A stretch of 64,000 nucleotides of DNA from Lentilactobacillus diolivorans DSM 14421. Its GTDB lineage: Bacteria > Bacillota > Bacilli > Lactobacillales > Lactobacillaceae. The stretch spans positions 1-64,000 of the forward strand of contig NZ_AZEY01000107.1 in NCBI RefSeq assembly GCF_001434255.1, read 5' to 3'. The position numbers were made by a program, and so were the translations under genes. Shown piece after piece: positions 11,503 to 57,779 of the stretch (positions within the stretch are counted from its first letter, which is position 1; each line of letters opens with the position of its first letter). The notes under the pieces are model-generated. The model saw only the letters and a list, made by a program, of their open reading frames with translations. It searched no databases and was not told the origin of the DNA.

Positions 11503-11549
11503 GTGCGCCAAAAGGCAACTTCCTGCCGAATAACCGCCTTTCGTCCCAC
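11503..11549. repeat. Palindromic intergenic element, short form (copy G)
   Basis: Outer arms GTGCGCCAAAAGGC and GCCTTTCGTCCCAC pair at 11 of 14 positions. Between them only the internal-loop signatures remain (AACTTCCTGCC and GAATAACCGCC). The inner stem present in the 110-bp copies is missing. The element is joined on its left to the clpE terminator through the TCACGATTATTACCGAG box. Confidence 0.65.
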
Positions 11550-11693
11550 TCTCTTTTGCTACAATCATGATGTTTATAAACTAAAAACTATCGCGCCTCA
11601 CTAATATCGATTCCTAAAAAGCATCCCCTGCTATCAATCACCCGATTTCACTTGCTAGGAAGATATTCTCTTTGGCTAACAGCTTGACTCATT

Positions 11694-11704
11694 TATGCTA
11701 TAAT
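11694..11704 (+). promoter_or_regulatory. Extended -10 promoter of the MucBP-like gene
   Basis: TATGCTATAAT, a perfect TRTGN extended -10, 36 nt before the ATG of the next gene. No good -35 is visible at 16-18 nt. Confidence 0.6.
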
Positions 11705-11739
11705 TTTTAGTAGAACGTGTTGATGATGGGGGAAAACGG

Positions 11740-12855
11740 ATGACACTTTTTGACTGGATTAAACAACAATTTCATACACTGACCGTTGATAAAAGTCGGC
11801 CAAAAAGAAATCATCGTGATCACCACCATGATTATCACCAACGAAAACGATTGGTGGATCAGTCTCAAAAGACAAATAATGATCAAAAATCACCATATGC
11901 AATTCAGGCCGATAATCCAGCAACGACACTTCCAGAAATCAAACAGTCAGTTGACCAAGTTTCTCCAGTTACCATGGCTCAATCTCAAGTCACCTTTTTT
12001 TATTTGGACGAAAATCATCAAATCATTAAGTCTCCTGATATTTTAGTTGGTAATCAGGGCGAGTCCTTTCATTTCAAACTACCAAGATTTAAGAATCATT
12101 ATTTAGTGGCAATTGATCATTTTACCAATCATTTTTTAGCTTATGATCAGGACGTTACTCTCCACTTCGCACTTAAAGAGGGACTTCCGGTCATGGTTTA
12201 TACGGTTGATTTCGATACCGGCCAAATACTACAACCAGTCAAAATTATTTCTGATAAAATGTGTCAAAAATACGAGATTACTGCACCAAAAATTGATCAT
12301 TTTCGAGTTATCAACAGTACTGGAAAGAAATATGGCCTTTTCGATAATCGAACCCATGGCATTATTTTTTATTATCGGAAAGAGGACTGGGAAACTGTTC
12401 AACCCGTTGCTTACTTTGTCCGTTTAAACAAGCATCATTTAGTCTTTAACGAGCCCAATGGGTATCAATTAAAAACCGGACTACCTGCCAACATTATTAT
12501 TAAAGTATTCGCTCGAATAGACACATCAAACAACAAAAGCTGGCTCAATATCGGTGGTTTTGAGTGGATAGAAAATCAACATCTCGAACCTAGTGATCCA
12601 CCAATTCATAATTTAATTGCTTCAATGACTAAAACTTCTAGGAATCGGGTGATGTTGACTGGAGCAGTTGACTTTGTACCTGGACAATCAATCAGCACAT
12701 TTGATAAACCCTATGGTAAACAAGCTGGAAAACTGTTAGATGGGACTAAAATCAGCATTATTGCGACCATTGTGGACGACCAAAATTTAATTTGGTACGA
12801 ATTAGAAAATCACCAGGTTATTCCCAAGGGCTATATCAAAATTGACCATGGCTAA
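11740..12855 (+). CDS. Histidine-rich protein with MucBP-like repeats and an SH3-like C-terminus, function unknown
   Basis: 371 residues. Residues ~20-40 are very basic and His-rich (RPKRNHRDHHHDYHQRKR). Three or more beta-rich segments between about 85 and 285 resemble MucBP-type repeats (QVTFFYLDENHQII ..., VMVYTVDFDTGQIL ..., GIIFYYRKEDWETVQP). Residues ~305-365 look like a bacterial SH3/GW-type module (SISTFDKPYGKQAGKLLDGT). MucBP modules normally sit on secreted or wall-anchored adhesins. Here there is no signal peptide, transmembrane helix or LPxTG motif. GGGGG precedes the ATG, and a promoter is at 11694. It appears to be a single-gene unit. Function and location are unknown. Confidence 0.6.
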   Translation: MTLFDWIKQQFHTLTVDKSRPKRNHRDHHHDYHQRKRLVDQSQKTNNDQKSPYAIQADNPATTLPEIKQSVDQVSPVTMAQSQVTFFYLDENHQIIKSPDILVGNQGESFHFKLPRFKNHYLVAIDHFTNHFLAYDQDVTLHFALKEGLPVMVYTVDFDTGQILQPVKIISDKMCQKYEITAPKIDHFRVINSTGKKYGLFDNRTHGIIFYYRKEDWETVQPVAYFVRLNKHHLVFNEPNGYQLKTGLPANIIIKVFARIDTSNNKSWLNIGGFEWIENQHLEPSDPPIHNLIASMTKTSRNRVMLTGAVDFVPGQSISTFDKPYGKQAGKLLDGTKISIIATIVDDQNLIWYELENHQVIPKGYIKIDHG

Positions 12856-12953
12856 AACTTCAAAAATATCATCATTTGGTCTCCAAAATCATATCTAACG
12901 CTGGTACCTGGTCAACTTATGGCTTTACCTCATAATTTTATATCAAAAAAAGA

Positions 12954-13009
12954 GTGACATGAAAAGCAGTTTTCTTATAGCCCGAGAGGCTAAACGCTTT
13001 TCATATCAC
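12954..13009. terminator. Bidirectional terminator that is also a short-form palindromic element (copy H)
   Basis: GTGACATGAAAAGC pairs with GCTTTTCATATCAC, flanked by AAAAAAAGA on the left and TCTTTTTT on the right, so it can terminate both the gene at 11740 and the convergent dipeptidase gene. The right side of the loop has GAGGCTAAACGC, the same signature as in the 110-bp elements, which ties an ordinary-looking terminator to that family. Confidence 0.75.
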
Positions 13010-13061
13010 TCTTTTTTCTAATAATTAAGTACCATCATGCTTACTGACATGATTACTGGTT

Positions 13062-14489
13062 TTACAAATTTTTATCAATATTAAAAGTTAATTTCGATAA
13101 TGTTAGCCCTTTTTCAATCAATTGATGGTTAAAATGCTCCGTTGCAATTCGCATCATTTTGACAACTTCGTGGTTCTGTTGCGTCAAATAATTTGTTAAC
13201 TCTTCGCCCTTTAACCCTTTAGCTTCGTCAATTGCATCTTGAACGTGTCGTCGTAATTTTTCTTTTGAATCAGTTAGGAAATCAATATCATCTTGAATGA
13301 ACTCAGAATAATGTGACTCCACCAGCATTGAAAGCTTACGATACATCCAATAAGCACTCTGGTCATCACAATGGAGTGGTGTCTTGGCGTAGCTCTCATC
13401 AGTGTCATTGGCATTCCCAAAGAATGGGACGTATGGCGAAAATGCCGGTACTCCAAAGCAAAGCCACATAATGGCTGAACTATCGTTGGTCACGTCATTT
13501 CGAATTTGCAAAACATGTGAATTCTGTGTTCGATTCATCGAAATTGGCCTAAATAATGTTTTTGTGTCTTCATTGCCACGGCTAAACGGATCATAAACTG
13601 TTTCATTATAGTGGGAACTCAAAATGTACTCGATATCTTCAACACTAATCTTTTTGCTTGTTCGACAAATGAACGGTAACTCTGAAGAAATCGGCGACTG
13701 TTTAATTTCGGGATTTAAAACTCGTTGACCAAACCAAACCCGCGGCGTATTATAATGACGATCTTTTTCGTTATCTGTTCCAAAAATATGTCGGAAATTA
13801 AAACCGGTTTGATCCGTGTTTAAATGATAATTCTCAACAAATTCTTGAATGCCGTCAGAATACATAAAATTATCAGGATCATTAAAATCAACCTGTTGAA
13901 TCGCAACTTGATTAGCAGTTATGGCATAAGCATCATCAGGAATTCGCTGGGCAACCCAGTGATGGCCAGTCACAATTTCCATGTACCAAACTTCATCTTT
14001 ATCACTGAAGAGAACCGCGTTTCCTTCTGGAGAACCATATTGCTTGATTAGCTTTCCCAGATAAATAACCCCATCTTTGGCAGAATCAATATAGGGCAAT
14101 ACCATTGACTGAAGGGAGTCTTCCGCCAAACCATTTTCAACTAACGGGTCAAAGGCTAACGTCCGTTCATTACCGTAGACACTTTCGGTTGCACTCATGG
14201 CCACATTTTTTTCATTAAAACCACTTTCAGCGTAAACCCCTTCTTTATCAACATCAGCGTTAGGGGTAACTTGATATCGGTATCCTTTCTTGGGAAGTGG
14301 TGCTGTAAACCCATTTTGATTGGATTGCCATGTTCCCTTTTGATTAGAGACAGCGGGTTGAACGAAAAAACGTTGGGGCGTTAATGGCAAAAAAGTATCG
14401 TCGTTTCTGGCAATCATCGTTGACCCATCAATTGAAGCCTTTTTACCGACTAAAACACTTGTACATGCTGATAAATGTTTTGAAACCAT
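13062..14489 (-). CDS. pepD: C69-family dipeptidase
   Basis: 475 residues. Members of peptidase family C69 are N-terminal-nucleophile hydrolases that cleave a wide range of dipeptides in the cytoplasm. The catalytic Cys is Cys9 in LSACTSVLVGKKASIDGS, followed by the expected MIARNDD and later WYMEIVTGHHWVAQRIPDD. A TTG eight codons upstream could also start the frame. The ATG at 14489 is chosen because GAAAGAAGAG lies about 9 nt before it and because the Cys then falls close to the N-terminus as in the family. The stop of prfC is 26 nt upstream. Confidence 0.9.
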   Translation of the reverse strand: MVSKHLSACTSVLVGKKASIDGSTMIARNDDTFLPLTPQRFFVQPAVSNQKGTWQSNQNGFTAPLPKKGYRYQVTPNADVDKEGVYAESGFNEKNVAMSATESVYGNERTLAFDPLVENGLAEDSLQSMVLPYIDSAKDGVIYLGKLIKQYGSPEGNAVLFSDKDEVWYMEIVTGHHWVAQRIPDDAYAITANQVAIQQVDFNDPDNFMYSDGIQEFVENYHLNTDQTGFNFRHIFGTDNEKDRHYNTPRVWFGQRVLNPEIKQSPISSELPFICRTSKKISVEDIEYILSSHYNETVYDPFSRGNEDTKTLFRPISMNRTQNSHVLQIRNDVTNDSSAIMWLCFGVPAFSPYVPFFGNANDTDESYAKTPLHCDDQSAYWMYRKLSMLVESHYSEFIQDDIDFLTDSKEKLRRHVQDAIDEAKGLKGEELTNYLTQQNHEVVKMMRIATEHFNHQLIEKGLTLSKLTFNIDKNL

Positions 14490-14515
14490 TTTATAAATCT
14501 CTTCTTTCAACAAAA

Positions 14516-23453: not shown

Positions 23454-23544
23454 TGTATCATATGAATCTATTATGCGTCCAAAATACGTCACCGCACAAG
23501 GTCAAGGCTGCTTACCCAAATTCACGTGTCTACCAATCTGAAAC

Positions 23545-23798
23545 GTAATCAAAAAGCAGATTCCTGCCGTGTAAGGCACTTAACCCTAATATTCAAGACC
23601 GGATTCCTTCTGCCTACTTGGCTGAAACGTGATCAAAAAAGCAGATCCCTGCCATATAAGGCACTTAACTCTAATATTCAAGACCGGATTCCTTCTGCCT
23701 ACTTGGCTGAAACGTGATCAAAAAAGCAGATTCCGGCCATATAAGGCACTTAACCCTAATATTCAAGACCGGATTCCTTCTGCCTACTTGGCTGAAAC
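23545..23798. repeat. Three tandem half-units of the palindromic element (array A)
   Basis: Units start at 23545, 23629 and 23714, with a spacing of 84-85 bp. Each carries the left arm GTGATCAAAAAAGC, the loop motif CCCTGCCATATAAGG, the inner left arm GCACTTAACCCTAATATTC, and a linker ending GGCTGAAAC. None has the matching right arm. The first unit is slightly diverged (GTAATC). The complete palindrome follows at 23799. Confidence 0.85.
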
Positions 23799-23910
23799 GT
23801 GATCAAAAAAGCAGATCCCTGCCATATAAAGCACTTAACCCTAATATTCAAGACCGGAATATTAGGGTTAAGTGCTTTATATTCTGGGATCTAACCGCTT
23901 TTTTGATCAC
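23799..23910. repeat. Palindromic intergenic element, long form (copy A)
   Basis: 112-bp imperfect palindrome. Outer arms GTGATCAAAAAAGC/GCTTTTTTGATCAC, second stem GATCCC/GGGATC, inner arms GCACTTAACCCTAATATTC/GAATATTAGGGTTAAGTGC around loop AAGACCG. The unpaired internal motifs are TGCC on the left and TCT plus TAACC on the right. It ends one base before the stop codon of the yihY-like gene and is followed on the plus strand by CTCTATTTT. Confidence 0.9.
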
Positions 23911-23911: not shown

Positions 23912-24811
23912 CTATTTTCTTTTCCTCAATCGCTTCGCTCTTTTGATGACATTTTCAACCGCATCAGTCTGTTCTTGAACCTTGCCGAGCCTCATTTCTT
24001 GGATGGTTGCATTGATGACACCGCCCAATAACATAATGATTCCAGAAAAGTCTAACCAAAACATCAACACAATAAACGTTCCAATTGTTTTGTAAGCATC
24101 AATTCGGTTGGCAAAAAATTTCAAATATACTGAAAAGCCTTGTGCCAATAACATCAAACCAATCGTGGCAAATAATGCGCCCACCCAAACATATCGAAAT
24201 TTCACTTTCGCAGTTGGCACAAAATAAAACAACAGATTAAGCAACAACCAAACAATTAAAATGGTCGTTGGCCACTTGACCGTTCCAATCAAACTAACAA
24301 TTGAATTGGGAACATGCAATAGCGGCTGCAGCCAATTAAAAATAAATTGACTAAACGCAAATAATAGCATAATCGCCACAACCGCCACCAGTAATACCAG
24401 CATCCAAATGAACGAAATTAATCTGTTTGAGATGGCTGTTTGATCAGCTGCTACCCCATATGTTTTATTAATACTTCGTTGAAAAGCAGCAATTGCTCGA
24501 CTTGCCGACCACACCGTCACAATTAGCCCAACTGATAGCTGACTGGTACCACCACTATGCAGCGTCGAATCAATAATCGGTTCCAACATGGTATAAATGC
24601 GTTCGGGGAAAATTGGCCGTAAATAAACTTCAACATCCTGCGTATTAATTTGCACAAGGTTAAAAACACTTCCAACAACAAATAGAATTGGAAAAATGCA
24701 CATTAATGAATAAAATGCCAAAACAACCGCAGAATCAGACACGTTTCCAGAAGAATAATGACTGATTAGCAGTTTAATAAAACGCTTGGTCTTTTGGAAT
24801 AATGGTTTCAT
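23912..24811 (-). CDS. YihY/BrkB family membrane protein
   Basis: 299 residues with six hydrophobic helices. Family marks are LISHYSSGNVSDSAVVLAFYSLMCIFPILF at the N-terminus, LSVGLIVTVWSASRAIAAFQRSINKTYG, and GTFIVLMFWLDFSGIIMLLGGVINA near the end. The C-terminal tail is basic (VIKRAKRLRKRK). Some relatives were annotated as ribonuclease BN in error. The transport substrate is unknown. Its stop codon is one base from the palindromic element. Confidence 0.87.
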   Translation of the reverse strand: MKPLFQKTKRFIKLLISHYSSGNVSDSAVVLAFYSLMCIFPILFVVGSVFNLVQINTQDVEVYLRPIFPERIYTMLEPIIDSTLHSGGTSQLSVGLIVTVWSASRAIAAFQRSINKTYGVAADQTAISNRLISFIWMLVLLVAVVAIMLLFAFSQFIFNWLQPLLHVPNSIVSLIGTVKWPTTILIVWLLLNLLFYFVPTAKVKFRYVWVGALFATIGLMLLAQGFSVYLKFFANRIDAYKTIGTFIVLMFWLDFSGIIMLLGGVINATIQEMRLGKVQEQTDAVENVIKRAKRLRKRK

Positions 24812-28996: not shown

Positions 28997-29034
28997 CTGA
29001 GGCTGGGACAATCGTCATTTGTTCCAGCCTCAGT
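28997..29034 (+). terminator. Hairpin of the GGGACA type after the small membrane protein gene
   Basis: TGAGGCTGGGACA pairs with TGTTCCAGCCTCA, a stem of about 13 bp. There is no T run directly after it, so termination may be weak. It is joined through the TCACGATTATTACCGAG box (29049-29065) to the repeat units that follow, the same composite order as after clpE. Confidence 0.65.
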
Positions 29035-29068: not shown

Positions 29069-29159
29069 GCTGGACAAGAGGTAACTTTCAGGCGTGTACC
29101 CGAATCAACGAGATATTCAGATTCAGAATATCTCGTTGAACTTGTTACCTAGCAGAAAC
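29069..29159. repeat. Half-unit of the palindromic element (array B)
   Basis: Carries an altered left portion (CAAGAGGTAACTTTCAGGCG), a perfect apical hairpin CAACGAGATATTC-AGATTCA-GAATATCTCGTTG, and the linker GAACTTGTTACCTAGCAGAAAC that also precedes the complete units in arrays A and F. Confidence 0.7.
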
Positions 29160-29271
29160 GTGGGCCAGCAAGCAGACCCCGGCCATACAAGCCCCCTGAC
29201 TTAATATTCCAAAATCGGGAATATCAAGTCAGGGGGCTTATATTCTGGAGTCTAAACACTTGCTGGCCCAC
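29160..29271. repeat. Palindromic intergenic element, long form (copy B)
   Basis: 112 bp. Outer arms GTGGGCCAGCAAG/CTTGCTGGCCCAC and inner arms AAGCCCCCTGACTTAATATT/AATATCAAGTCAGGGGGCTT, both different in sequence from the other copies. The internal motifs CCCCGGCCATA and TATATTCTGGAGTCTAAAC are shared. It lies between convergent genes (small membrane protein, plus; ABC permease, minus) and is followed by CTCTATTT. Confidence 0.9.
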
Positions 29272-32717: not shown

Positions 32718-32790
32718 TGACCCCACCCGGACTCGAACCGGGATCAACCGCTTAGGAGGCGGGTGCCCTATCCAGTTGTGCTATGGGGCC
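32718..32790 (-). tRNA. tRNA-Arg (anticodon CCT)
   Basis: 73 nt on the minus strand. Acceptor stem GGCCCCA/TGGGGTC, D arm with AACTGGATA loop, anticodon loop CTCCTAA giving anticodon CCT (codon AGG), T stem CCCGG with loop TTCGAGT, discriminator A. CCA is not encoded. It is a lone tRNA between a terminator and the helicase gene. No integrated element or att-like repeat was seen beside it. Confidence 0.95.
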
Positions 32791-35881: not shown

Positions 35882-35990
35882 ATGACACAAGGCAGCCCCC
35901 GGCCATTTAAAGGACTTCCCGCAATATTCTCAAGCCCAGAATATTGCGGGAAGTCCTTTAAATTCTGGAGGCTAACCGCCTTGTGTCGCC
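35882..35990. repeat. Palindromic intergenic element, long form (copy C)
   Basis: 109 bp. Outer arms GACACAAGGC/GCCTTGTGTC, inner arms AGGACTTCCCGCAATATTCT/AGAATATTGCGGGAAGTCCT (perfect 20 bp, extended by AA/TT), loop CAAGCCC. Internal motifs AGCCCCCGGCCATTTA and TAAATTCTGGAGGCTAACC are conserved, and even AGCC/GGCT can pair. It lies between convergent genes and ends 12 nt before the GH25 stop codon. Confidence 0.9.
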
Positions 35991-36002: not shown

Positions 36003-36776
36003 CTAACTTCCCACCTGCTCATCCAAATACTGATGCCACTGTTTCGTATTTCCGTTAAAGACAGCCATTGGCAAGAAAACAACCTGATGATCCAAGCGAA
36101 AATCCTGCTTATTAGTTGCCTGCAGAAACGTTGCATCTCCATTTGGTCGTCCTAGCTGACCATCAGTTACCCAAAATTGACGTTTGGCACTCGCCTGAAT
36201 TTCAAGACGTGAAAGAATACTGCGCGTTGCTGAAATGACAACTGGACGCTGATAATAACGTCGCATTTTGTGTACTAAGGACCTCATATTCTTACGAGCC
36301 GACTGCCAATGGACTGAGTCTTCGTTATAAGTGCCATAATACTGGATCGTAATACAAATTGGCAAACTACCGGTATTAAACTTTACCTGCCGCACAAAAT
36401 TTTTGAATTGAGCAGTTGGTGAACTGCTAAAACTAAAGTAGTGATAAACGCCAACCGGCAACTGAGAGCCCTGGCTGCGTTGAAAATTGCTTAAAAAACT
36501 ATCATCAGTAAAGGCAGCGCCCTGAGTCGCCTTGATGTATACAAAGCGGACCCCACGATTTTTCAAACTTTCAAAGTCAATATAACCATTATTTTGATTA
36601 ATACTAACACCACGGATTGGGTATTTTTCTAAAATCTGTTTTTGATGCCATCGCCAGGCGTAACCTATCGATCCCAGCACCAGAATCAACAAAAAAATGC
36701 CGAACACAACCTTACGCGTGCGTTTACGTCTTCGGTATGTTTCAGCATATATTGGTTGGATATCTTTACGCTTCAT
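36003..36776 (-). CDS. GH25 lysozyme-fold protein with a degenerate active site
   Basis: 257 residues. A short basic cytoplasmic tail, one membrane helix at ~22-41, then a GH25 domain facing outside. The fold is recognisable from YPIRGVSIN, GVRFVYIKATQGAAFTDDSF, PVGVYHYFSFSSSPTAQ and FWVTDGQLGRPNGDATFLQAT. The expected catalytic acids are not there. The DVS Asp aligns with Ser58, KATEG has become KATQG (Gln85), and the central D-x-E has become Thr143-Ile-Gln145. It is therefore probably a non-hydrolytic peptidoglycan-binding or regulatory protein. The ribosome binding site is weak. It lies 32 nt from the regulator gene upstream in the same direction. Confidence 0.82.
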   Translation of the reverse strand: MKRKDIQPIYAETYRRRKRTRKVVFGIFLLILVLGSIGYAWRWHQKQILEKYPIRGVSINQNNGYIDFESLKNRGVRFVYIKATQGAAFTDDSFLSNFQRSQGSQLPVGVYHYFSFSSSPTAQFKNFVRQVKFNTGSLPICITIQYYGTYNEDSVHWQSARKNMRSLVHKMRRYYQRPVVISATRSILSRLEIQASAKRQFWVTDGQLGRPNGDATFLQATNKQDFRLDHQVVFLPMAVFNGNTKQWHQYLDEQVGS

Positions 36777-39672: not shown

Positions 39673-41028
39673 ATGCAATTAATTGCACTTTTAATTGGAA
39701 TCATTATCTTACTGGTTCTAATTATTCAATTTAAAATTAATACCTTCGTTTCGTTGGTATTAACTGCTGCAATCACCGCGGTTATGCTGGGCATGCCACT
39801 TGGTAAAATTGCGGATTCAATCACTAATGGGATTGGAAGCCAATTAGGTGAACTGTCAATGGTCTTTGGGTTTGGTGCCATGCTTGGCCGACTGGTTTCC
39901 GATTCCGGTGGTGCTTATATGATTGCTCACACCCTGATTAATAAATTTGGTCGCAAGCGGCTGCAAATCGCCGTTATGCTCGCTTCATTTATTTTAGGGA
40001 TTGCGTTATTCTTTGAAGTTGGGATGGTTTTACTGGTTCCAATCGTCTTCGCAATTACTGTTGAGGCTGGCGTTCCAATTCTTTATTTGGGGATTCCAAT
40101 GGCTGCCGCATTGTCAGTTACCCACGGATTCTTGCCGCCTCATCCAGCACCAGTTGCCATCGCGCAAGTCTTGGGAGCAAATGATGGTCGTGTCTTAATT
40201 TTCGGCTTTGTAATTGCTCTAATCGCTGCCTACATTGCCGGTCCGTTGTTCTCAAAGCTCGCCCGCAAGTTCGCTCCGGCTGCTTTTGATCGAAAGGGAA
40301 ACCTTTCTTCAATTGGTGAAGTCAAGGAATACAGTCCTGAAAAGTCACCGTCGTTTGGCTTATCAGTTTTAACTGCTTTGTTCCCTGTTATCTTACTTGC
40401 CATTGCGACAATTTACAAAATGACAGTTAATGGCGGTGCCGAACCTAAGAATCCATCCATGCTTGATTCAATTATTGAATTCATTGGATCACCAAGTATC
40501 GCAATGTTAATTTCATTATTCTTCGCAATGTGGACAATGGGTTGGGCTCGAAAACGAACAACTGCCCAAATTATGGAATCACTTGAAAACGCCGTTAAAT
40601 CAATCGCAATGCTGCTATTAGTTATTGGTGGTGGTGGTGCGTTTAAGCAAGTCCTCATTGATGGTGGTGTTGGTAAAGAAGTTGCTAAAATTTTCTTAGG
40701 CTCGTCAATGTCACCATTAATTCTTGGCTGGTTAATTGCGGTTGTGCTTCGAATTGCCCTTGGATCAGCAACCGTTGCATCATTAACCGCTGCCGGAATT
40801 GTGGCTCCATTAATGGCACAGTCAGGTGTTGATCCTGCTTTAATGGTTCTAGCCATCGGTGCTGGTTCACTTGCCGCATCACATGTTAATGATGCCGGCT
40901 TCTGGATGTTTAGAGAATATTTTGATTTAACAATCAAACAAACATTACAAACATGGACTGTTTTGGAATCGATCATTTCCGTTGTCGGGATTGGCATGGT
41001 TATGATTCTCAACGTCTTCTTCCATTAA
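39673..41028 (+). CDS. gntP: Gluconate:H+ symporter (GntP family)
   Basis: 451 residues, the family length, with about twelve or more hydrophobic helices. Family marks are NGIGSQLGELSMVFGFGAMLGRLVSDSGGA, HGFLPPHPAPVAIA, and near the end AIGAGSLAASHVNDAGFWMFREYF. Imports gluconate with protons for gntK, encoded upstream. AAAGGGG precedes the ATG. Presumably in one operon with gntK. Confidence 0.95.
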   Translation: MQLIALLIGIIILLVLIIQFKINTFVSLVLTAAITAVMLGMPLGKIADSITNGIGSQLGELSMVFGFGAMLGRLVSDSGGAYMIAHTLINKFGRKRLQIAVMLASFILGIALFFEVGMVLLVPIVFAITVEAGVPILYLGIPMAAALSVTHGFLPPHPAPVAIAQVLGANDGRVLIFGFVIALIAAYIAGPLFSKLARKFAPAAFDRKGNLSSIGEVKEYSPEKSPSFGLSVLTALFPVILLAIATIYKMTVNGGAEPKNPSMLDSIIEFIGSPSIAMLISLFFAMWTMGWARKRTTAQIMESLENAVKSIAMLLLVIGGGGAFKQVLIDGGVGKEVAKIFLGSSMSPLILGWLIAVVLRIALGSATVASLTAAGIVAPLMAQSGVDPALMVLAIGAGSLAASHVNDAGFWMFREYFDLTIKQTLQTWTVLESIISVVGIGMVMILNVFFH

Positions 41029-41078: not shown

Positions 41079-41188
41079 GCGGGGCAAAAGGCGTTTAACT
41101 TCCAGAGTGTAATTGGATTATCCGAATATTCTGAACTTGAATATTTGGATAATTCAGTTACACGGCCGGGAGTTGCCTTTTGTCCCGC
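41079..41188. repeat. Palindromic intergenic element, long form, opposite orientation (copy D)
   Basis: 110 bp. Read on the minus strand: outer arms GCGGGACAAAAGGC/GCCTTTTGCCCCGC, then ACTCCCGGCCGTGTAA, inner arms around CAAATATTC-AAGTTCA-GAATATTCG, then TTACACTCTGGAAGTTAAAC. All signatures are present, with the inverse orientation to the other long copies. It lies between convergent gntP and bioY, joined through a box at 41194-41211 (CGCTCGATAACAATCGTG) to the hairpin at 41224. Confidence 0.88.
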
Positions 41189-41223: not shown

Positions 41224-41262
41224 GAGGATGGGATAAATGACTATTATCCCATCCTCCTTTTA
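41224..41262 (+). terminator. Hairpin linked to palindromic copy D
   Basis: GAGGATGGGATAA ... TTATCCCATCCTC followed by CTTTTATTATT on the plus strand. On the minus strand it lies about 40 nt after the bioY stop, so it may serve bioY as well. Confidence 0.75.
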
Positions 41263-41870: not shown

Positions 41871-41904
41871 ATGGTTAACCAAATTATGAGTTTGGATTAA
41901 CCAT
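41871..41904. promoter_or_regulatory. BirA operator upstream of bioY
   Basis: ATGGTTAACC, 14-nt spacer, GATTAACCAT, an inverted repeat matching the Gram-positive BirA box (arms of the type ATTGTTAACC and GGTTAACAAT) in both arms and in spacing. It overlaps the -10 of the bioY promoter. Confidence 0.8.
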
Positions 41905-41912
41905 GCTATCAA
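41883..41912 (-). promoter_or_regulatory. bioY promoter
   Basis: Minus strand: TTGATA, 18-nt spacer, CATAAT, placed inside the BirA box and directly after the birA stop codon. Confidence 0.65.
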
Positions 41913-41922
41913 AAAAGAATGG

Positions 41923-42915
41923 CTAACCATGATAGCCATTTCCCGGTAAATAAACCTTAGTTACTTCACCACTAGCCACTGTGATTAACTTACCATTTTC
42001 TTCTTGAATCACCAATGCGCCTTCATCATTAAAATGACGTGCAACACCGGTAATGGTTCTTGTCCCCATAACAACCTCAATCTTTTGACCAAGCGTTTCC
42101 GATAGTTCAGAATAGGCTTTTAAAAAGCTGCCCGTTCGATAAGTCTGATACATATAAAAGAAATTATCAATGATACTGGCAACGATTCGATTGCGATCAA
42201 TTTGGCTTTGGATCACAATTGAGCCGGCTTTATGTTTAATATCATCTGGATAATGATTAGAATCAATGTTTAAACCAATACCAACAATCACATTTTCATG
42301 GGATCCATCCTCTAAGCTGGAAATCGTTTCGGTTAAAATGCCCCCACATTTTTTATCATGGGCTAGAATGTCATTAACCCACTTAACCCGAAAATCGACT
42401 TGGGGAAAAAATTGTTTTAATGCCCGAACAACACAAACGGCGGTGCTGGTTGTAATTAAACCAGAATGAATGGTATCCCGATTTTGAATTGGCACAAGTA
42501 TACTCATGTAAATACCACTATGACGAGGTGAATAAAAATGACGCCCCAAGCGGCCATGGCCACTAGTTTGCGTGTCAGTCACAAAAGCCTGGGCACGAGT
42601 CACAACTCGGGAACTGCAAAATTGCTTAGCAAAATCATTAGTTGAAGTTAAGGTGTCAAATGTCTGGACATCAACCGGATACGTTGTCGTGCGATAATGA
42701 TTAATGACTTGAGAATTTAAACATCCAGACTGCTCATAGCAATATCCCAAACCTTTTTTCGTATCAATTTGATGACCACAACGTTCCAGTTTCAAAATAT
42801 TGTTATACACTGCCGGACGACTAATCTTAAACTGCCGGGCAAGTTCATTTCCTGAAACGTAGCGATGGTCGGCCGCTAACAATGCATGTAAAATTTGAGC
42901 CTGATGATCCATCAT
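41923..42915 (-). CDS. birA: Biotin-protein ligase and biotin repressor BirA
   Basis: 330 residues, the bifunctional form. An N-terminal winged-helix domain of ~60 residues (SGNELARQFKISRPAVYNNILKLERCGHQIDTKKGLGY) is followed by the ligase domain with TSGHGRLGRHFYSP (biotin/ATP loop) and KWVNDILAHDKKCGGIL, and a C-terminal SH3-like domain. It attaches biotin to AccB and, when saturated, represses bioY through the box at 41871. The ATG at 42912 is slightly better spaced from AAGGAC than the one at 42915. Confidence 0.95.
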   Translation of the reverse strand: MMDHQAQILHALLAADHRYVSGNELARQFKISRPAVYNNILKLERCGHQIDTKKGLGYCYEQSGCLNSQVINHYRTTTYPVDVQTFDTLTSTNDFAKQFCSSRVVTRAQAFVTDTQTSGHGRLGRHFYSPRHSGIYMSILVPIQNRDTIHSGLITTSTAVCVVRALKQFFPQVDFRVKWVNDILAHDKKCGGILTETISSLEDGSHENVIVGIGLNIDSNHYPDDIKHKAGSIVIQSQIDRNRIVASIIDNFFYMYQTYRTGSFLKAYSELSETLGQKIEVVMGTRTITGVARHFNDEGALVIQEENGKLITVASGEVTKVYLPGNGYHG

Positions 42916-43047
42916 TTGTCCTTACCTCACTCTTAAATCAAGATCCCATTCTTCGTCGATAATCTATTAGTTTTACACATAAGATAAACCAAGGTCGGAA
43001 TTCAAAACCAGAATGCCGAGAACTCGCCGATGTTTCTTAGCCGAAAC
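42916..43047. other. Intergenic region before repeat array E, with a repeat remnant
   Basis: No gene. At 43001-43047 it holds a truncated end of a further repeat unit (TTCAAAACCAGAAT, then the linker GATGTTTCTTAGCCGAAAC), showing the array once extended further left. Confidence 0.6.
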
Positions 43048-43237
43048 GTGATCAAATCAGCAGCTCCCGGCCATATAAGCCGGCCCATCCAATATTCAAA
43101 ACCAGAATATTAGACAGCCTGCCGATGTTTCTTAGCCGAAACGTGATCAAATCAGCAGCTCCCGGCCATATAAGCCAGCCCATCTAATATTCAAAACCAG
43201 AATATTAGACAGCCTGCCAATGTTCCTTAGCGGAAAC
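43048..43237. repeat. Two tandem half-units of the palindromic element (array E)
   Basis: Units start at 43048 and 43143, exactly 95 bp apart. Each has the left arm GTGATCAAATCAGC, AGCTCCCGGCCATATAAG, an inner left arm ending AATATTC, the loop AAAACCA and GAATATT, then diverges into the linker ending TTAGCCGAAAC. Sequence between units is nearly identical, indicating recent duplication. Confidence 0.88.
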
Positions 43238-43347
43238 GTGATCAAATCAGCAGCTCCCGGCCATATAAGCCAGCCCATCTAATATTCAAAACCAGAATAT
43301 TAGATGGGCTGGCTTATATTCTGGGATCTAACCGCTGATTTGATCAC
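43238..43347. repeat. Palindromic intergenic element, long form (copy E)
   Basis: 110 bp. Outer arms GTGATCAAATCAGC/GCTGATTTGATCAC, inner arms GCCAGCCCATCTAATATTC/GAATATTAGATGGGCTGGC around AAAACCA. Internal motifs CCCGGCCATATAA and TTATATTCTGGGATCTAACC. It ends 5 nt before the fabI stop codon, and here both flanking genes are on the minus strand. Confidence 0.92.
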
Positions 43348-43352
43348 TCTCT

Positions 43353-44111
43353 TTAAATAAGATGCACACCCTTATCAACGTAAACCACGTCGCCGGTCAT
43401 TCCAGTTGCCAGATCACTCATCAAAAAGGCAGCCACATTTCCGATTTCGGTTGTTGTAACGCTCTTTTGATCAACGGTTCTCGACTCCGATTCCTTTAAC
43501 AATTCACCATGATGCTTAATGCCGGTAACTGCTAATGTCTTAACCGCACCCGCAGAAATTGCGTTTACTCGAATCCCATTCACCCCTAAATCTGAAGCTA
43601 AATAGCGAACGTTGGCTTCCAAGGCCGCTTTGGCAACACCCATCATATTGTAATTTGGAATGGCCCGAGTTGAACCAAAATAAGTCAAAGTTACAATACT
43701 TGAAGGGTCATTTAGGATTGGTTGTGCATAACGACTCACTGCAATCAATGAGTAGGCACTAATGTTTTGAGCCAAATCGTATCCTTCACGAGTAGTATGT
43801 ACCAGCCCAGACGTCAATGTCTCACGGTCAGCATAAGCGATTGCATGAATCACACCATCAATTTTGCCATACTTATTACCAATCTCTTCGAATGCATTTT
43901 TAATGTTGTCATCATCAGCAACGTCACATTCTACTAATTCTGAATCTTCAGGAACAAATCGTTGTAAGCTCTTCTTAATTCGATCATTTTGATAAGTTAA
44001 AATAACCTTAGCGCCTTGATCAATAATTGCCTGGGTACATCCCCAAGCAATACTGCGTTTATTTGCGACCCCCATGATCACAATTGTTTTTCCATCTAAA
44101 AAGCCACTCAT
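43353..44111 (-). CDS. fabI: Enoyl-ACP reductase FabI
   Basis: 252 residues. NADH-dependent last step of each fatty-acid elongation cycle. SDR fold with GVANKRSIAWG in place of the usual glycine loop, the FabI-type active site Tyr-x6-Lys in YNMMGVAKAAL, and TLTYFGSTRAIPNYN. GGAGG precedes the ATG. It is the last gene of the fab-acc cluster, 28 nt after accA. Confidence 0.96.
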   Translation of the reverse strand: MSGFLDGKTIVIMGVANKRSIAWGCTQAIIDQGAKVILTYQNDRIKKSLQRFVPEDSELVECDVADDDNIKNAFEEIGNKYGKIDGVIHAIAYADRETLTSGLVHTTREGYDLAQNISAYSLIAVSRYAQPILNDPSSIVTLTYFGSTRAIPNYNMMGVAKAALEANVRYLASDLGVNGIRVNAISAGAVKTLAVTGIKHHGELLKESESRTVDQKSVTTTEIGNVAAFLMSDLATGMTGDVVYVDKGVHLI

Positions 44112-44139
44112 TTAATTCGGCCTCCAAATAATTTTTCTT

Positions 44140-44910
44140 TTAAAAATTCCGGTAACGTTGCTCACGTTGGCGTAATAACTCGCCAATCGGTAAATTGGCC
44201 AGTTCATTAAACTGATTTGCCAGAAAGTCACGTAGTGGGCCTAAATTCTCACCAGAGTGGTATTCATGAATAATCTGATCAATAATACCATTTTCTTGTA
44301 ACCATTCTGGTGTTAAATTTAAGGCTTCAGCTGCTTGCTGAACCTTTGATGAATCCTTCCACATGATGCTGGCATAGCCTTCAGGTGACAAAACGGAATA
44401 AATACTATCTTCAAACATAAATACTTTGTCGCCACAGGCAAGCGCAATCGCGCCACCACTACCACCTTCGCCAACAATGATACTAATGTAGGGTACCTTT
44501 AGTTGCATGCCCACTTGTAAGCACTTGGCAATTGCAGAGCCAATACCGTGATATTCAGCATCCACATCCGGCCAAGCGCCAGGCGTATTCACCAGCGCCA
44601 AAATCGGTCGATGGAATTTTTCCGCCTGTTGCATTAATCGAAGCGCTTTACGATAGCCTTCCGGTTCAGGGCTACCGAAATGACGCTTGATATTTTCTTC
44701 CGTATCAGCACCCTTACGAATCCCAACCACTGTAATCGGTACATCCTTTAACAATCCAATGCCACCGATTACTGCTTGATCATCGCCATCAGACCGATCT
44801 CCATGGAGTTCAAAAAAATCAGTTGTCAAACCACGAATGAGTTCATCCGTTGAAATTTTATGACTGTCACGGGCTGCCTGAACACGTTGATAAGCTGTTT
44901 TTTTAGCCAT
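44140..44910 (-). CDS. accA: Acetyl-CoA carboxylase carboxyltransferase subunit alpha
   Basis: 256 residues, the short form of Lactobacillales lacking the long N-terminal extension of the E. coli protein. Crotonase-like fold with GRKGADTEENIKRHFGSPEPEGYRKALRLM-type acyl-CoA region and GEGGSGGAIALACGDKV. With AccD it transfers carboxyl from biotin to acetyl-CoA, making malonyl-CoA. GGGAGG precedes the ATG. Overlaps accD by 8 nt. Confidence 0.95.
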   Translation of the reverse strand: MAKKTAYQRVQAARDSHKISTDELIRGLTTDFFELHGDRSDGDDQAVIGGIGLLKDVPITVVGIRKGADTEENIKRHFGSPEPEGYRKALRLMQQAEKFHRPILALVNTPGAWPDVDAEYHGIGSAIAKCLQVGMQLKVPYISIIVGEGGSGGAIALACGDKVFMFEDSIYSVLSPEGYASIMWKDSSKVQQAAEALNLTPEWLQENGIIDQIIHEYHSGENLGPLRDFLANQFNELANLPIGELLRQREQRYRNF

Positions 44911-45745
44911 GACTAGCCTCCCTCTGATGCAGTCGCAATAATTGAGAGATTGTCTGCTTTAAATTGGTCCGCGGAACAATCGCATCGATAAAGCCGTGAT
45001 CCAAAACAGTTTCAGCCCTTTGAAAATTCTTGGGTGGCTGCTTCATAATTGTTTGTTCAATGACTCGGCGACCAGCAAATCCAACCAAAGCATGAGATTC
45101 GGCTAAAATAATGTCGCCCTGCATTGCAAAACTGGCAGTAACGCCACCAGTCGTTGGATCACAAAGAACCACCAGATAAAACAGTCCGGCTTTGCTGTGA
45201 GCCTCAACAGCCTGGGACACCTTTGCCATTTGCATCAGTGACTTGATCCCTTCCTGCATCCGCGCACCACCAGAAGCCGTAAACATGACAACCGGCAACT
45301 TTTCAGTGGTTGCTTTTTCGAACAATCGAACAATTTTTTCACCAGTGGCACTTCCAAGACTACCCATGATAAAGAATGGGTCCATAATTCCGGCCACCAC
45401 TTTTTGATGATCCAGTGACCCGATTCCAGTCAAGACACTTTCCTTAATTCCGGTTACCTTTTTTGCTTTTGCAATTTTACCCCGATACTTCTTATCGTCA
45501 TATTGGTCGGGAACCGTTACGTCTGCATCCATTTCGTCAAAGGTATCAAACGTAATCTTAGCCCGCCTGCGAGCCGTAATTCGAAAACCAAATCCACAAT
45601 TAGGGCAGGTTCGCTGCTTGCCCATTCTCATCGAAAAAAACGTTGTATGGCAAATTGGGCATTCTTTCATTAAGTTATCGGGGATTTTATCCATTCGCTT
45701 TTTTAATTCATCACGACTGGGCATTTTAAACCGACTTTGCAGCAT
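44903..45745 (-). CDS. accD: Acetyl-CoA carboxylase carboxyltransferase subunit beta
   Basis: 280 residues. N-terminal zinc ribbon with Cys29, Cys32, Cys47 and Cys50, then the carboxyltransferase fold (GSLGSATGEKIVRLFEKA, FTASGGARMQEGI, PTTGGVTASFAMQGD). Partner of AccA. The ATG at 45745 overlaps the accC end by 20 nt and has GAGGGG upstream, indicating coupled translation. Confidence 0.95.
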   Translation of the reverse strand: MLQSRFKMPSRDELKKRMDKIPDNLMKECPICHTTFFSMRMGKQRTCPNCGFGFRITARRRAKITFDTFDEMDADVTVPDQYDDKKYRGKIAKAKKVTGIKESVLTGIGSLDHQKVVAGIMDPFFIMGSLGSATGEKIVRLFEKATTEKLPVVMFTASGGARMQEGIKSLMQMAKVSQAVEAHSKAGLFYLVVLCDPTTGGVTASFAMQGDIILAESHALVGFAGRRVIEQTIMKQPPKNFQRAETVLDHGFIDAIVPRTNLKQTISQLLRLHQREASHG

Positions 45746-50977: not shown

Positions 50978-50986
50978 AGTATCAAC

Positions 50987-53351: not shown

Positions 53352-53378
53352 AAAATAGTTTGAAATTCAAACTATTTT
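53352..53378. promoter_or_regulatory. FabT operator 2, upstream of the fab promoter
   Basis: 13-bp perfect inverted arms (AAAATAGTTTGAA and its complement) around a single central base. The core TTTGAAATTCAAA fits the FabT palindrome. It lies about 60 bp upstream of the -35, so looping or cooperative binding with operator 1 is possible. Confidence 0.7.
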
Positions 53379-53413
53379 GGTTAATGGCGTAATAACCGAT
53401 AAAACAAAGAATA

Positions 53414-53440
53414 GAAAAACGCCAAAATAACGGCGTTTTT
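53414..53440 (-). terminator. Terminator after the SPFH gene
   Basis: AAAAACGCC-aaaataa-CGGCGTTTTT, symmetrical and bidirectional. It separates the SPFH unit from the fab operators. Between it and the SPFH stop (53441-53532) nothing else is recognised. Confidence 0.8.
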
Positions 53441-53532
53441 CAAGATCAAAACTTTTTTATGAAGATTTTATGAAGACCACTCAAGAATTTAATTACAATT
53501 CATTCTTTCTAACACAACTCATATATTCTGAA

Positions 53533-54480: not shown

Positions 54481-54560
54481 ATCCAACATCTTCCTTTCAT
54501 AAATCATCATTAAATGATGCAGCTGAAATTAATCTAAGGATCAGCAAAGATGCACAATCC

Positions 54561-54800
54561 TCACAGGTCTTGAAAATTGAGGACATTATCCGCATCGATA
54601 GGGATGCCACTAATTTCCCTTGCCAGTAACCGGCTCCCAACGACCTTTTCAACTCGAGCAAATTTTGAATCTTTTAATTTCCCGGTAATCGTATAACTAA
54701 ACGGCATCCCATCGATTTGAGCAAATCCTGTCTTTTGAGCCGGAACCGGAATCAGCCGACCGACCAGCTGCTGATTTAACGATTCATTAATATTGGTCAT
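54561..54800 (-). CDS. Small NfeD-like OB-fold protein, no membrane segments
   Basis: 79 residues. The segment LVGRLIPVPAQKTGFAQIDGMPFSYTITG ... FARVEKVVGSRLLAREI matches in layout the C-terminal OB-fold domain of NfeD proteins, which are usual partners of SPFH proteins. The serine-protease and membrane parts of NfeD are absent. Its position 80 nt before the SPFH gene supports the reading. AAAGGATG lies about 12 nt before the ATG. The family assignment is by pattern and context only. Confidence 0.55.
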   Translation of the reverse strand: MTNINESLNQQLVGRLIPVPAQKTGFAQIDGMPFSYTITGKLKDSKFARVEKVVGSRLLAREISGIPIDADNVLNFQDL

Positions 54801-54976
54801 TAAAACATTTCACATCCTTTCTAATCTATGTACCTTAGGTTACCAGATTTTTCGTTATGTTTCACCGTTAGAATGACCAAATGACCACTAAGTTAAAAAG
54901 ATTAAGAGATGATTTTGATCACTAACCACTTTTTCACATCTCTCATTAGAATCTCAATCAAGTTAATCTGACCAAT

Positions 54977-55026
54977 AAAAAAGTTCTGTCGAATCAGTTA
55001 AAAATCAACTGGTTTGACAGAACTTT
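54977..55026 (-). terminator. Terminator of the deo genes after pdp
   Basis: AAAGTTCTGTC ... GACAGAACTTT with an inner AATCAGTT/AACTGGTT stem, and a T run on the minus strand, 27 nt after the pdp stop. Confidence 0.85.
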
Positions 55027-55052
55027 ATTTTGCAGGTTGTGAAAACAAGTCA

Positions 55053-56372
55053 CTAAACACCTTGTTTTTCTACCCCAATAGTCTCATAAATCAGTTTAGG
55101 CTTTTGGGCTTGTTTGGCAATTTCGATGTTGCCATAGAGAAGTGATTTGATATCATCAACCTTTTTTCGATTACTATAGATAGTTAAGAGTGGCTCACCC
55201 TTTTCAACCGAATCACCGATTTTCTTATTAAGCATGATTCCCACGGCGTAATCCAGCTTATCGTTGGCTTTTTGACGACCACCGCCTAATAACATGCTGG
55301 CAACACCGATCTCATTGGCCACAATCTTGGAGACAACCCCTGATGTTTTAGCAGGTAATGTAATCCGGTATTTGGCTTGTGGCAGGATTTCCTCAGGATC
55401 ATCAATTACCCTTGGGTCGCCGCCTTGGTCTTTAATCATTGCTCGAAAACGTTCAAGTGCCTGACCATTGTGAATAACATCTTCGCATAATTGTTGGCCC
55501 TGCTCAACGGTCGTGGCCTTATTGCCCATAACAGCCATATAACCACCAATAACAACAATTAACTTTTCAAGATCGGCAGGTCCATTTCCTTTCAGTAATT
55601 CAATTGATTCTTGAATTTCCAGTGCATTACCAATGGCTTTACCCAGGGGTTGATTCATATCAGTAATCAAAGCCATGCACTGCATGCCAACTCCTTTACC
55701 AATTCCTACCAAAGCCTCTGCCAATTCACGAGAATCAGCAAGTGTCTTCATGAATGCACCAGCGCCGGTTTTAACATCAATCACTAAAGCATCAGCGCCA
55801 GAAGCAATCTTTTTGCTCATAATCGAACTAGCGATTAATGGAATCGAATCAACGGTGTCGGTAACATCCCGGAGAGCATAAATTTTTTTATCAGCTGGCG
55901 CAATATTACCGGTTGCGCCAATAATCGCAAGCTTGTCTTCCTTAACCTGTTCGATAAAGTCCTGTTCACTAATTTCTACCCGATACCCAGAAATTGCTTC
56001 CAATTTATCTAAAGTACCACCAGTATGCCCCAGTCCACGGCCGGAAATCATTGGGACAGGAATTCCTAAAGCGGCTACCACTGCAGCCAACGGAATACTG
56101 GTTTTATCACCAACACCACCCGTTGAATGCTTGTCTACCTTAACACCAGGAATCTCACTCAAATCGAGATGGTCACCAGAGGTCATCATCGTCATTGTCA
56201 ATGTTGACTGCTCTTTTTCAGTCATTCCCTGGAAGTAAATTGCCATAAGTAAGGCGCTGATTTGATAATCAGGAATATCACCTGAGACAACGCCATCGAC
56301 AAAAAATTGAATTTCTTGTTCAGTCAATTCTTTACCAGAACGCTTATTATGAATCACATCTACCATTCGCAT
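55053..56372 (-). CDS. pdp: Pyrimidine-nucleoside phosphorylase
   Basis: 439 residues. Splits (deoxy)uridine and thymidine into base and (deoxy)ribose-1-phosphate. Family marks are [38 protein letters not shown] (phosphate binding), [16 protein letters not shown], and the C-terminal [16 protein letters not shown] and [23 protein letters not shown]. The ribose phosphate then goes to DeoB, and the deoxy form to DeoC. AAAGGAGG precedes the ATG. A cre site is 20-33 nt upstream. Confidence 0.95.
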
Positions 56373-56391
56373 AAGTTATTTTCCTCCTTTT

Positions 56392-56405
56392 TGCAATCGC
56401 TTACA
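56392..56405 (-). promoter_or_regulatory. Catabolite-responsive element upstream of pdp
   Basis: Minus strand TGTAAGCGATTGCA, an exact match to the cre consensus TGTAANCGNTNNCA. It lies between deoR and pdp, just after a possible promoter (TTGTGA, 17 nt, GATAAA), so CcpA should repress pdp in the presence of preferred sugars. Confidence 0.85.
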
Positions 56406-56471
56406 TTTATCTTTTAAAGAAAACCCGGTCACAATTTGGACGTTGCTTCCGGCCTCTGCTTTTCAATTTAG

Positions 56472-57422
56472 CTAATCATAATCAATTAGTAATTGTGCCA
56501 AGCTTTGATCAATCACAACACTATTCGCATAACCCGCCTTCAGAACTGCATGAACCCCCGCTACTTTGCGATTACCGGTCGCAACCAAAATGGCATGTTC
56601 CTTGACTTTTAAATCATCTAATTGAATCCCAATGGTTCGCTCATCAATCTGCTGATTAACAATCTGGCCGTTACGATCAATGAAACGGGAAAAGACATCC
56701 CCGATTGCTACCTGTTGCAGCTGTTCTTTTTCCTGTTCATTGAAATAACCCAGTTGAAAAATCAACGCTTCTGATCGAACGGTCCCAACAGTAAATAATG
56801 CCACATTGGCTTTCCTGCCCAAATCTAAGATATGCTTAATGTGACGGTCACTTTCGACCATCTCCTTAGTCACCTTATTGTCAAAAATCACTGGCAAGGG
56901 TAAATATTCGGGACGGGTTCGGTAGGCCTTCGCCAACTCATTTGCAGATTCATATGCCCAAGTTTTTTCAGTGGCATAACTCACGCTACCCTTCAATTGG
57001 ACAACTTGGACACCAGATGCATTTTGTTCTTCTATCTGTTTGGTTACCGAATGTACGGTTCTCCCCCAACCAAGTCCAATAATATCACCTGGCTGTACAA
57101 TCGTTGTTAGAAAGTCAGCAGCATATTTGCCCACACTTTCTTGAAATGAAGACAAACCACCATAATTATGCGGAACAACGTGAAAATCGACACCATACTT
57201 GTCACTCAACTGAGTGGCAAGTACTTGGGAATCAACTAATGGATTGACAATCTGGATTCGAACCAGACCATTATCCTTAGCATATTGCAATAAGCGCGAA
57301 ACAGTTGGCCGAGAAACACCAACCCGTTTGGCAATTTCCAGTTGGCTATAATTATTTTGATAATACATTTCAGCCACCTGTAAACTCTGTTTTAATTTTG
57401 CAACGTCTCTAATCTCGGCCAT
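56472..57422 (-). CDS. deoR: Deoxyribonucleoside regulator DeoR (SorC family)
   Basis: 316 residues, as in the Bacillus DeoR, which belongs to the SorC family. N-terminal HTH (QVAEMYYQNNYSQLEIAKRVGVSRPTVSRLLQYAKDNGLVRI) and sugar-phosphate-binding domain (DIIGLGWGRTVHSV, VQLKGSVSY, LFTVGTVRSEALIFQLGYF). It should release DNA on binding deoxyribose-5-phosphate. A matching operator lies upstream of deoC at 60469-60482. AAAGGGAG precedes the ATG. Confidence 0.9.
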   Translation of the reverse strand: MAEIRDVAKLKQSLQVAEMYYQNNYSQLEIAKRVGVSRPTVSRLLQYAKDNGLVRIQIVNPLVDSQVLATQLSDKYGVDFHVVPHNYGGLSSFQESVGKYAADFLTTIVQPGDIIGLGWGRTVHSVTKQIEEQNASGVQVVQLKGSVSYATEKTWAYESANELAKAYRTRPEYLPLPVIFDNKVTKEMVESDRHIKHILDLGRKANVALFTVGTVRSEALIFQLGYFNEQEKEQLQQVAIGDVFSRFIDRNGQIVNQQIDERTIGIQLDDLKVKEHAILVATGNRKVAGVHAVLKAGYANSVVIDQSLAQLLIDYD

Positions 57423-57484
57423 CTATTTCACACTCCCTTTATTCTAAACCATATTTTCTTTTAGCTTTCTCAATCATGAAACAT

Positions 57485-57669
57485 GTGACTAACCAGCTGC
57501 CCCGGGCATATAAGCAGCGCGATCAAATATTCAAAACCAGAATATTCGGACCCGGACTTGCTACCTGGCCGAAACGTGCCCCAACCAGCAGCCTCCGGCC
57601 ATATAAGCAGCGCTATCAAATATTCAAAACCAGAATATTCGGAACCCGGACTTGCTACTTGGCCGAAAC
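57485..57669. repeat. Two tandem half-units of the palindromic element (array F)
   Basis: Units start at 57485 and 57576 (91 and 94 bp spacing to the next unit). Left arms are GTGACTAACCAGC and GTGCCCCAACCAGC, followed by the GGNCATATAAGCAGCGC motif, AATATTC-AAAACCA-GAATATTCGGA, and the linker GACTTGCTACNTGGCCGAAAC. The outer arms differ from each other and only the last unit matches the single right arm. Confidence 0.85.
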
Positions 57670-57779
57670 GTGCGACAACCAGCAGTCCCCGGCCATATAA
57701 GCAGCGCTATCAAATATTCAAAACCAGAATATTCGATACCGCTGCTTATATTCTGGGGACTAACCGCTGGTTGTCGCAC
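57670..57779. repeat. Palindromic intergenic element, long form (copy F)
   Basis: 110 bp. Outer arms GTGCGACAACCAGC/GCTGGTTGTCGCAC (perfect). Inner arms GCAGCGCTATCAAATATTC/GAATATTCGATACCGCTGC carry symmetrical mismatches. Internal motifs CCCCGGCCATATAA and TTATATTCTGGGGACTAACC. It ends 3 nt before the deoD stop codon; both flanking genes are on the minus strand. Confidence 0.92.

Follow-up and report, generated by a model that had tools for sequence, protein, structure and literature searches.

A hairpin repeat family of Lactobacillales, probably mobile and of the EFAR type, conserves its fold on one strand and often begins at stop codons

The window analyzed here, a 64,000-nucleotide stretch from Lentilactobacillus diolivorans DSM 14421 (contig NZ_AZEY01000107.1, positions 1 to 64,000 of the forward strand), contains eight copies of an intergenic palindrome that measures about 110 bp in its long form. 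We consider it probable that these copies belong to a non-autonomous mobile repeat family of the type of the EFAR elements of Enterococcus faecalis, which occurs in at least seven labelled families of the Lactobacillales and whose core hairpin must fold as a single strand with fixed polarity. The initial annotation, made from the letters of the window, had drawn the fold on one strand; it is the opposite strand that conserves it, and we refer to this opposite strand as the functional strand. The core on that strand comprises about 120 nt in the order 5'-AGAG, outer arm, bulge GNUU, middle stem, asymmetric internal loop (AGA/GGCC or relatives), inner stem, apex and, at the end, CGUUU-3'.

The six long palindromes and two short forms lie exactly where the initial annotation had placed them, and each long copy pairs with its own opposite arm and carries the internal-loop, bulge and apex motifs described there, while the GTG/CAC ends regarded as general are present in four of the six long copies and lacking in 35882 and 41079. 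In the orientation of that annotation the consensus reads AAAC-GTG-outer arm-GC-A-middle arm-CC-GGCC-inner arm-AATATTC-7 nt-GAATATT for the left part with the apex and continues with inner arm-TCT-GG-middle arm-T-AACC-GC-outer arm-CAC-TCT. Predicted folding energies of the long copies range from -50 to -83 kcal/mol on either strand. A covariance model built from the six recovers them, as follows from its construction, with E values from 1.5e-26 to 5.5e-30 when run on the window, and matches the short forms, which look like internal-deletion derivatives, at E 2e-5 and 2e-3. It had been overlooked that 23799, 43238 and 57670 are the terminal units of tandem arrays with periods of 85, 95 and 94 bp; each half-unit consists of a left half with apex and a short link, the right half is missing, and the right arm of the array pairs with the last unit. 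The copies are arranged in the window as follows:

57478-57779, minus strand: array of the full hairpin 57670-57779 and two tandem half-units, beginning directly past the deoD stop codon (deoD 57783-58490, minus strand)
43043-43347, minus strand: array of the full hairpin 43238-43347 and two half-units, period 95, directly past the fabI stop codon (fabI 43353-44111, minus strand)
23538-23910, minus strand: array of the full hairpin 23799-23910 and three half-units, period 85, at the stop of a YihY/BrkB-family gene (23912-24811, minus strand)
29160-29271, minus strand: full hairpin, with a terminator-like hairpin at 28997-29033 and a second palindrome at 29079-29151 (read by eye)
35882-35990, minus strand: full hairpin past a GH25 gene (36003-36776, minus strand); site filled with other arms in the related genomes G014 and G022 and empty in G016
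41079-41188, plus strand: full hairpin of a GCGGGAC subfamily, about 50 nt downstream of gntP (39673-41028, plus strand)
41224-41257, plus strand: second, terminator-like hairpin of the 41079 element, followed on the functional strand by T-rich sequence (read by eye)
11503-11549, minus strand: short form with the outer stem kept and the inner part lost, with a second hairpin at 11433-11468; full copy in the same intergenic region of G022
12954-13009, minus strand: short form between convergent open reading frames (ORFs)

The palindrome at 29079-29151 adjoins the 29160 copy upstream and has GGTAAC..GTTACC around an ATATTC hairpin; it differs from the copy and resembles the links between tandem units.

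The family is far larger than the eight copies of the window. With the six-copy model, at least 150 full copies are found in the own genome (the best 150 of 1420 candidates scored, the worst of those listed at E 3e-13), where a pattern for the left half yields 91 exact matches versus none for its reversed control. Matches extend to 17 of 41 genomes searched, that is 16 of the 24 genomes of the genus, own included, and one from another family.

Compensatory change beyond phylogeny, proposed in the initial annotation as the mark of selection on a fold, is borne out by the larger alignments. Standard pairs fill 94.7% of the pair cells in 119 own-genome copies versus 74.2% after shuffling and 29-45% after sliding, with a covariation score of 0.530 versus 0.157 shuffled; for 85 matches from other genomes the score is 0.870 versus 0.207. 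Pairs changed on both sides, one of five measures applied to these 85, show no excess (45 versus 44.1 shuffled, 179/500). Four of the 85 are opposite-strand matches and were left out of later counts, leaving 81 sequences. Since both alignments had been fitted to the structure, a plain MAFFT alignment of 56 sequences (A3) was used as well. Here RNAalifold predicts 46 pairs of columns, all 46 with compensatory change. A tree-aware null after the idea of R-scape (FastTree, parsimony counts re-dealt on branches, 25 simulations) leaves 26 of the 46 pairs significant in A3 and 34 of 46 in an 81-sequence alignment (A4), with zero significant pairs outside the structure in either. The best 46 column pairs lie inside the structure in 37 (A3) and 40 (A4) cases. 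Recent plain copying was discarded as the whole explanation, since in 17 copies that are under 72% alike pairing reaches 96.5% with a copy's own arm and 68% with the arms of other copies. One-sided changes outnumber two-sided ones 34 to 10 in close copies and 35 to 26 in copies 8-15% apart but are outnumbered 46 to 155 in those 15-25% apart, a shift with divergence as predicted by stepwise compensation.

Wobble pairs reveal the strand that folds. Among the 5467 cells of the 119 own-genome copies, G.U outnumbers A.C on the functional strand 216 to 44 (as initially drawn, A.C over G.T), a count that omits the internal-loop pair of columns 35-112, G.T in 96 of the 119 copies in the initial orientation, and that becomes 216 to 140 with this pair included. 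The A3 and A4 structures leave the pair open and need no exclusion. The asymmetry remains when copies are dereplicated (46 copies, 51 to 14; 17 copies, 21 to 1), and it is seen in inferred single events (75 to 30), in A3 minus the own genome (G.U 83, A.C 24) and, again on the strand opposite to the initial drawing, in other genomes (177 versus 30 in 81 sequences, 61 versus 14 in 35 sequences less than 70% alike). This 3.5- to 6-fold excess of G.U over A.C identifies the folded strand as the complement of the one initially drawn, and together with covariation beyond phylogeny it upholds the earlier claim of selection on a fold and marks the selected form as a folded single strand. Mutation bias was discarded as the source of the asymmetry, as G>A and T>C changes are equal in stems (37 and 38) and unpaired columns, with 48 versus 62, are unbiased (Fisher p 6e-5).

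Complementary arms could also arise by hairpin-templated correction of one arm against the other during replication, with no selection on the fold. Traces of such events may be seen in C17:63420, C8:67636, C22:92358 and C6:53645, where the asymmetric loop is converted to the complement of the other arm, with the converse in C35:146614, and the base on the GGCC side is missing in five of 119 aligned copies. However, arm correction would erase the asymmetric bulge and the internal loop, both of which survive in nearly all of the 119 copies; two-sided changes are a minority between close copies, and there is no evident reason why the process should favor G.U over A.C on one strand. We disfavor it as the sole cause and would be surprised if it explained the family.

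Occupation of individual sites differs between species. In collinear stretches of three other species, the copies at 57670, 43238, 23799 and 29160 (listed as 57665, 43233, 23794 and 29155) are absent wherever the flanks are alignable, which holds for two, three, two and one species, respectively. The filled and empty states of the 35882 site (listed as 35875) and the full copy that stands in G022 where the window has the 11503 short form (listed as 11498) are given above. Two sites without a copy in the window are filled in G014, and at one of them G022 has a copy of opposite orientation in the aligned interval. For 41079 and 12954 (listed as 41074 and 12949) no copy is present at the compared site, though the intervals differ in content or length. 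The number of units also changes. The fabI site holds three units in the window and a single unit in S. malefermentans and Lev. yonginensis, two relatives whose FabI is identical; four relatives have a shortened copy there, and no copy is seen in 15 records of Lentilactobacillus or in one labelled L. kefiranofaciens. Assigned by motif, the 119 own-genome copies carry no half-unit in 71 cases, one in 24, two in 15, three in eight and four in one. In L. parakefiri (L106 8461-8950), four full hairpins follow each other in tandem with a period of 123, and kefiri (L095) and otakiensis (L148) appear empty there. Close copies also reside at unrelated loci, with 19 disjoint pairs no more than 8% apart in the own genome. 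Sites filled in one species and empty in others, along with tandem half-units, point at a mobile family, and dispersal, polymorphism between species and close pairs point at one that keeps its fold while it moves. The initial annotation had taken covariation to exclude a mobile repeat on the grounds that a miniature inverted-repeat transposable element (MITE) would keep its sequence; this argument does not hold for copies that are dispersed, polymorphic and in part closely related. It had named loss of covariation in a larger alignment, or conserved copies with target duplications, as evidence that would speak against its view: covariation held up, evidence of copying was also obtained, and inspection by eye of the five sites printed showed no clear target duplication. 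An observation of a different kind was made on an L. backii plasmid (L306 1514-3225), where an ISL3-family element is inserted in the apex region of a hairpin array with an apparent short repeat, CTAATATTC/TAATATTC, at its sides.

Several points weigh against a mobile family selected for its fold, to which the wobble count with columns 35-112 included also belongs. Several species sometimes carry a copy in the same intergenic site, a pattern that could also stem from descent with drift, although one own-genome locus set in this comparison had been picked for carrying elements. The comparisons are between species, not strains, and no transposition event was observed. No autonomous copy with an ORF between the halves is present among the window and 40 own-genome stretches, where seven 'orphan' right halves each turned out to have a variant left half beside them. 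Nor did a mobilizing enzyme emerge from the three families tested in the 24 genomes of the genus. Y1 transposase is encoded in seven of them, is absent in the element-rich G004, G006 and G014 and present in the element-free G023; RVT_1 occurs in eight, with no match in the own genome or in the element-rich G004, G005, G006 and G014; Transposase_20 (IS110 kind) occurs in six with a distribution that does not follow the elements. The occurrence of all three does not track the elements, and none is supported as a mobilizing enzyme.

The absence of RVT_1 also bears on RNA-mediated spread in the manner of short interspersed nuclear elements, in which the folded RNA would be copied back into DNA beside stop codons by a reverse transcriptase acting in trans. 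Strand-specific wobble pairing, A-rich sequence upstream of the element start and the lack of a clear target duplication are consistent with such a route. Yet the own genome and the four element-rich genomes named above lack RVT_1, so that none is needed for the present copies, and folding of single-stranded DNA accounts for the same asymmetry; we assign this route a very low probability.

Position relative to genes was evaluated for 124 own-genome copies with naively called ORFs. A co-directional ORF points at the CTCT end of the element in 92 of 123 copies, while the other side shows little orientation bias (64 to 57) and divergent regions are found for 11 of 124. In 41 of the 121 copies with a located AGAG, an ORF of at least 80 aa has its stop-codon end within -8 to +2 nt of the element start, versus 42 of 2460 random intergenic positions on random strands of the same stretches (Fisher p 5e-35). 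Eleven of these 41 end at +2, their TAG stop using the element's own AG, and five further frames enter the element and end at +23 in its TTAG. An A-rich stretch precedes the element start at -8 to -2. In other genomes, a co-directional ORF lies upstream in 40 of 56 loci, some of them redundant, and within 12 nt in 24 of the 40; in an annotated E. faecalis record the upstream coding sequence (CDS) ends no more than 2 nt from the element, and in an L. plantarum plasmid record a symporter CDS terminates at it. Of 124 copies, 29 have a terminator-like hairpin in the following 300 nt, versus none of 124 after mononucleotide shuffling, so that some elements may bring their own terminator.

Such an arrangement would also be expected of a beneficial cis-acting RNA element in the 3' untranslated region (3'UTR), a hairpin at the mRNA end that controls 3' processing, stability or termination and is selected locus by locus. 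Besides the position behind genes, stop-codon proximity and nearby terminator-like hairpins, the fold on the gene-sense strand with G.U pairs agrees with this idea, and repeats of B. cereus are found in UTRs, one of them, bcr3, correlating with mRNA half-life (PMC3446304). However, neighboring genes are varied, and four of the six long window copies are absent from the same site wherever the flanks are alignable. Moreover, the 39 copies that lack a co-directional ORF in the 100 nt upstream equal the 80 with one in fold and asymmetry, and G.U to A.C counts are 128:28 in the sense context and 88:16 elsewhere. Context-dependent constraint was not seen; the constraint therefore goes with the element, not with the locus, and probably serves propagation. 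We regard locus-wise selection for a 3'UTR function as unlikely. Effects of the elements on host mRNA are likely, as a prediction. Such folds, placed at the stops of numerous ordinary genes, may influence 3' ends and the decay of mRNA in bacteria of food and the gut.

For the mobile, EFAR-type family that we favor, the following course is conceivable. The folded strand, be it single-stranded DNA or RNA, would be the form recognized for movement by an enzyme supplied in trans, and the fixed bulge, internal loop and flank sequences behave as recognition features would, while arms drift and pairing is kept. Insertion may invade or replace the start of the gene's 3' region, whereupon the element would become the 3'UTR of the host gene, in some cases together with a second, terminator-like hairpin of its own. 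Insertion at terminator bases, as is said of EFAR, could underlie the stop-codon position, in which case the A-rich stretch at -8 to -2 may be the upstream tract of the terminator. A bolder version, which we put forward tentatively and think may well fail, is a structure-addressed mobile element: the moved token would be a folded strand of fixed polarity with any arm sequence, and insertion would be coupled to translation stop codons, installing the element as host 3'UTR across the order. With their natural variety of arms around fixed loops, the copies are ready-made material for identifying the protein that reads the hairpin.

A second covariance model, built from 56 sequences on the strand opposite to the initial drawing, matches 46 of 198 Lactobacillales genomes in 24 of 54 genera and seven labelled families (cut-off E 1e-6, up to 18 candidates scored per genome). 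At class level, four of 200 genomes match, own included, leaving three outside the order. Distant genera were accepted on common bulge, flank and loop motifs in 19 readable loci of 20 plus further copies, and the remaining matches of the order scan were not inspected singly; the palindromes L099-L101 lack the family motifs and were excluded as generic hairpins. Start AGAG, bulge GNUU and end CGUUU are retained in distant copies; the exceptions (L242, L245, L248) come from one genome outside the order. Similarity at the DNA level links 25 plasmid records to a window copy, and in six the match spans 80% or more of the copy; the 25 belong to Lactiplantibacillus (10), Loigolactobacillus (7), Ligilactobacillus (6, partial) and Pediococcus (2). 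Of the 69 records matching the Enterococcus form, 58 are Enterococcus; single plasmid records of E. coli, Pseudomonas and Klebsiella match this form too. In the phage collection, no match to a window copy was found, and the Enterococcus form matches 74 records, 52 of which bear the label Listeria phage; the ten listed ones (H60-H69) are unannotated and may be host DNA.

The E. faecalis copy is about 170 nt long, starts right past an annotated stop codon and has two main stem-loops, the long one and a second hairpin. A 2007 paper reportedly describes EFAR as modular, mostly 170 bp long, with two stem-loops and with filled and empty sites between strains; the empty target sites are said to be stem-loops themselves that are partly deleted upon insertion. 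Filled and empty sites of the present family were seen between species. Efa-1 measures 163 bp, is intergenic, is listed with 65 (18) copies and is predicted to form a pair of adjacent stem-loops (Petrillo et al., 2008; PMC2267715), and EFAR has been counted among the MITEs (PMC3733652). Size, double hairpin and intergenic place agree, and Efa-1/EFAR is thus very probably the E. faecalis branch of the family, a judgement based on description. The earlier statement that no named family of this kind exists is therefore probably wrong for the Enterococcus branch, which probably already bears these names. Window subfamilies likewise carry a second hairpin, and many other copies lack it or have half-units instead. 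The family is far wider than described for the EFAR type, which appears to have been reported from one species; covariation, strand, half-unit arrays, order-wide spread and stop-codon position do not appear in the accessible parts of its descriptions. A repeat known from one Enterococcus species is hereby linked to a family that Rfam does not contain and that has a great many copies among lactic acid bacteria, and covariation and strand evidence suggest a mobile repeat under selection as a folded strand. Literature searches turned up no account of the hairpin family in Lactobacillaceae, with subscription papers mostly beyond reach.

Near in architecture is BOX of Streptococcus, a modular, folded and polymorphic intergenic repeat with a tandem module in variable number (Croucher et al., 2011; PMC3049150). 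There, the repeated boxB is flanked by boxA and boxC, from which the rest of the fold is made, whereas here half of the terminal palindrome repeats. With a repeat unit of left arm plus apex, the order boxA-boxB(n)-boxC was not encountered, which sets BOX apart by description. REP and REPIN elements are short palindromes often located behind genes. The present hairpin is much longer and no GTAG or CGTC tag was seen, these being the tags named in the title of PMC3733652. In contrast to the REP/RAYT pairing, the occurrence of Y1 transposase does not follow that of the present elements. The attC sites of integrons have variable arms and a conserved structure with extrahelical bases, and one strand is used. 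The likeness is one of logic only, and the neighbors of the present elements are ordinary genes in conserved order.

Searches of Rfam 15 with the window and 23 loci gave no gathering-score match on the hairpins, where sub-threshold matches are mostly to microRNA models; the matches above gathering score (tRNA, group II intron, BsrC) all lie outside the hairpins. A tRNA gene at 32718-32790 on the minus strand is the sole gathering match in the window. In another genus, a group II intron (L217 1659-2408; RF00029, RF02004) is situated beside two family hairpins. Near 1501-1650 of L216, L223, L226 and L232, the internal loop CCGAA is complementary to the 3' tail UUCGG, which hints at a long-range contact, and this complementarity is missing in other copies of the same kind (L224, L227, L228, L304). 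Finally, the fabI/acc/birA region of the window (41900-45745) shares 95-99.5% identity with clusters found on nine plasmids from beer-associated Loigolactobacillus backii and Pediococcus damnosus; the donor lineage may be near the window species.

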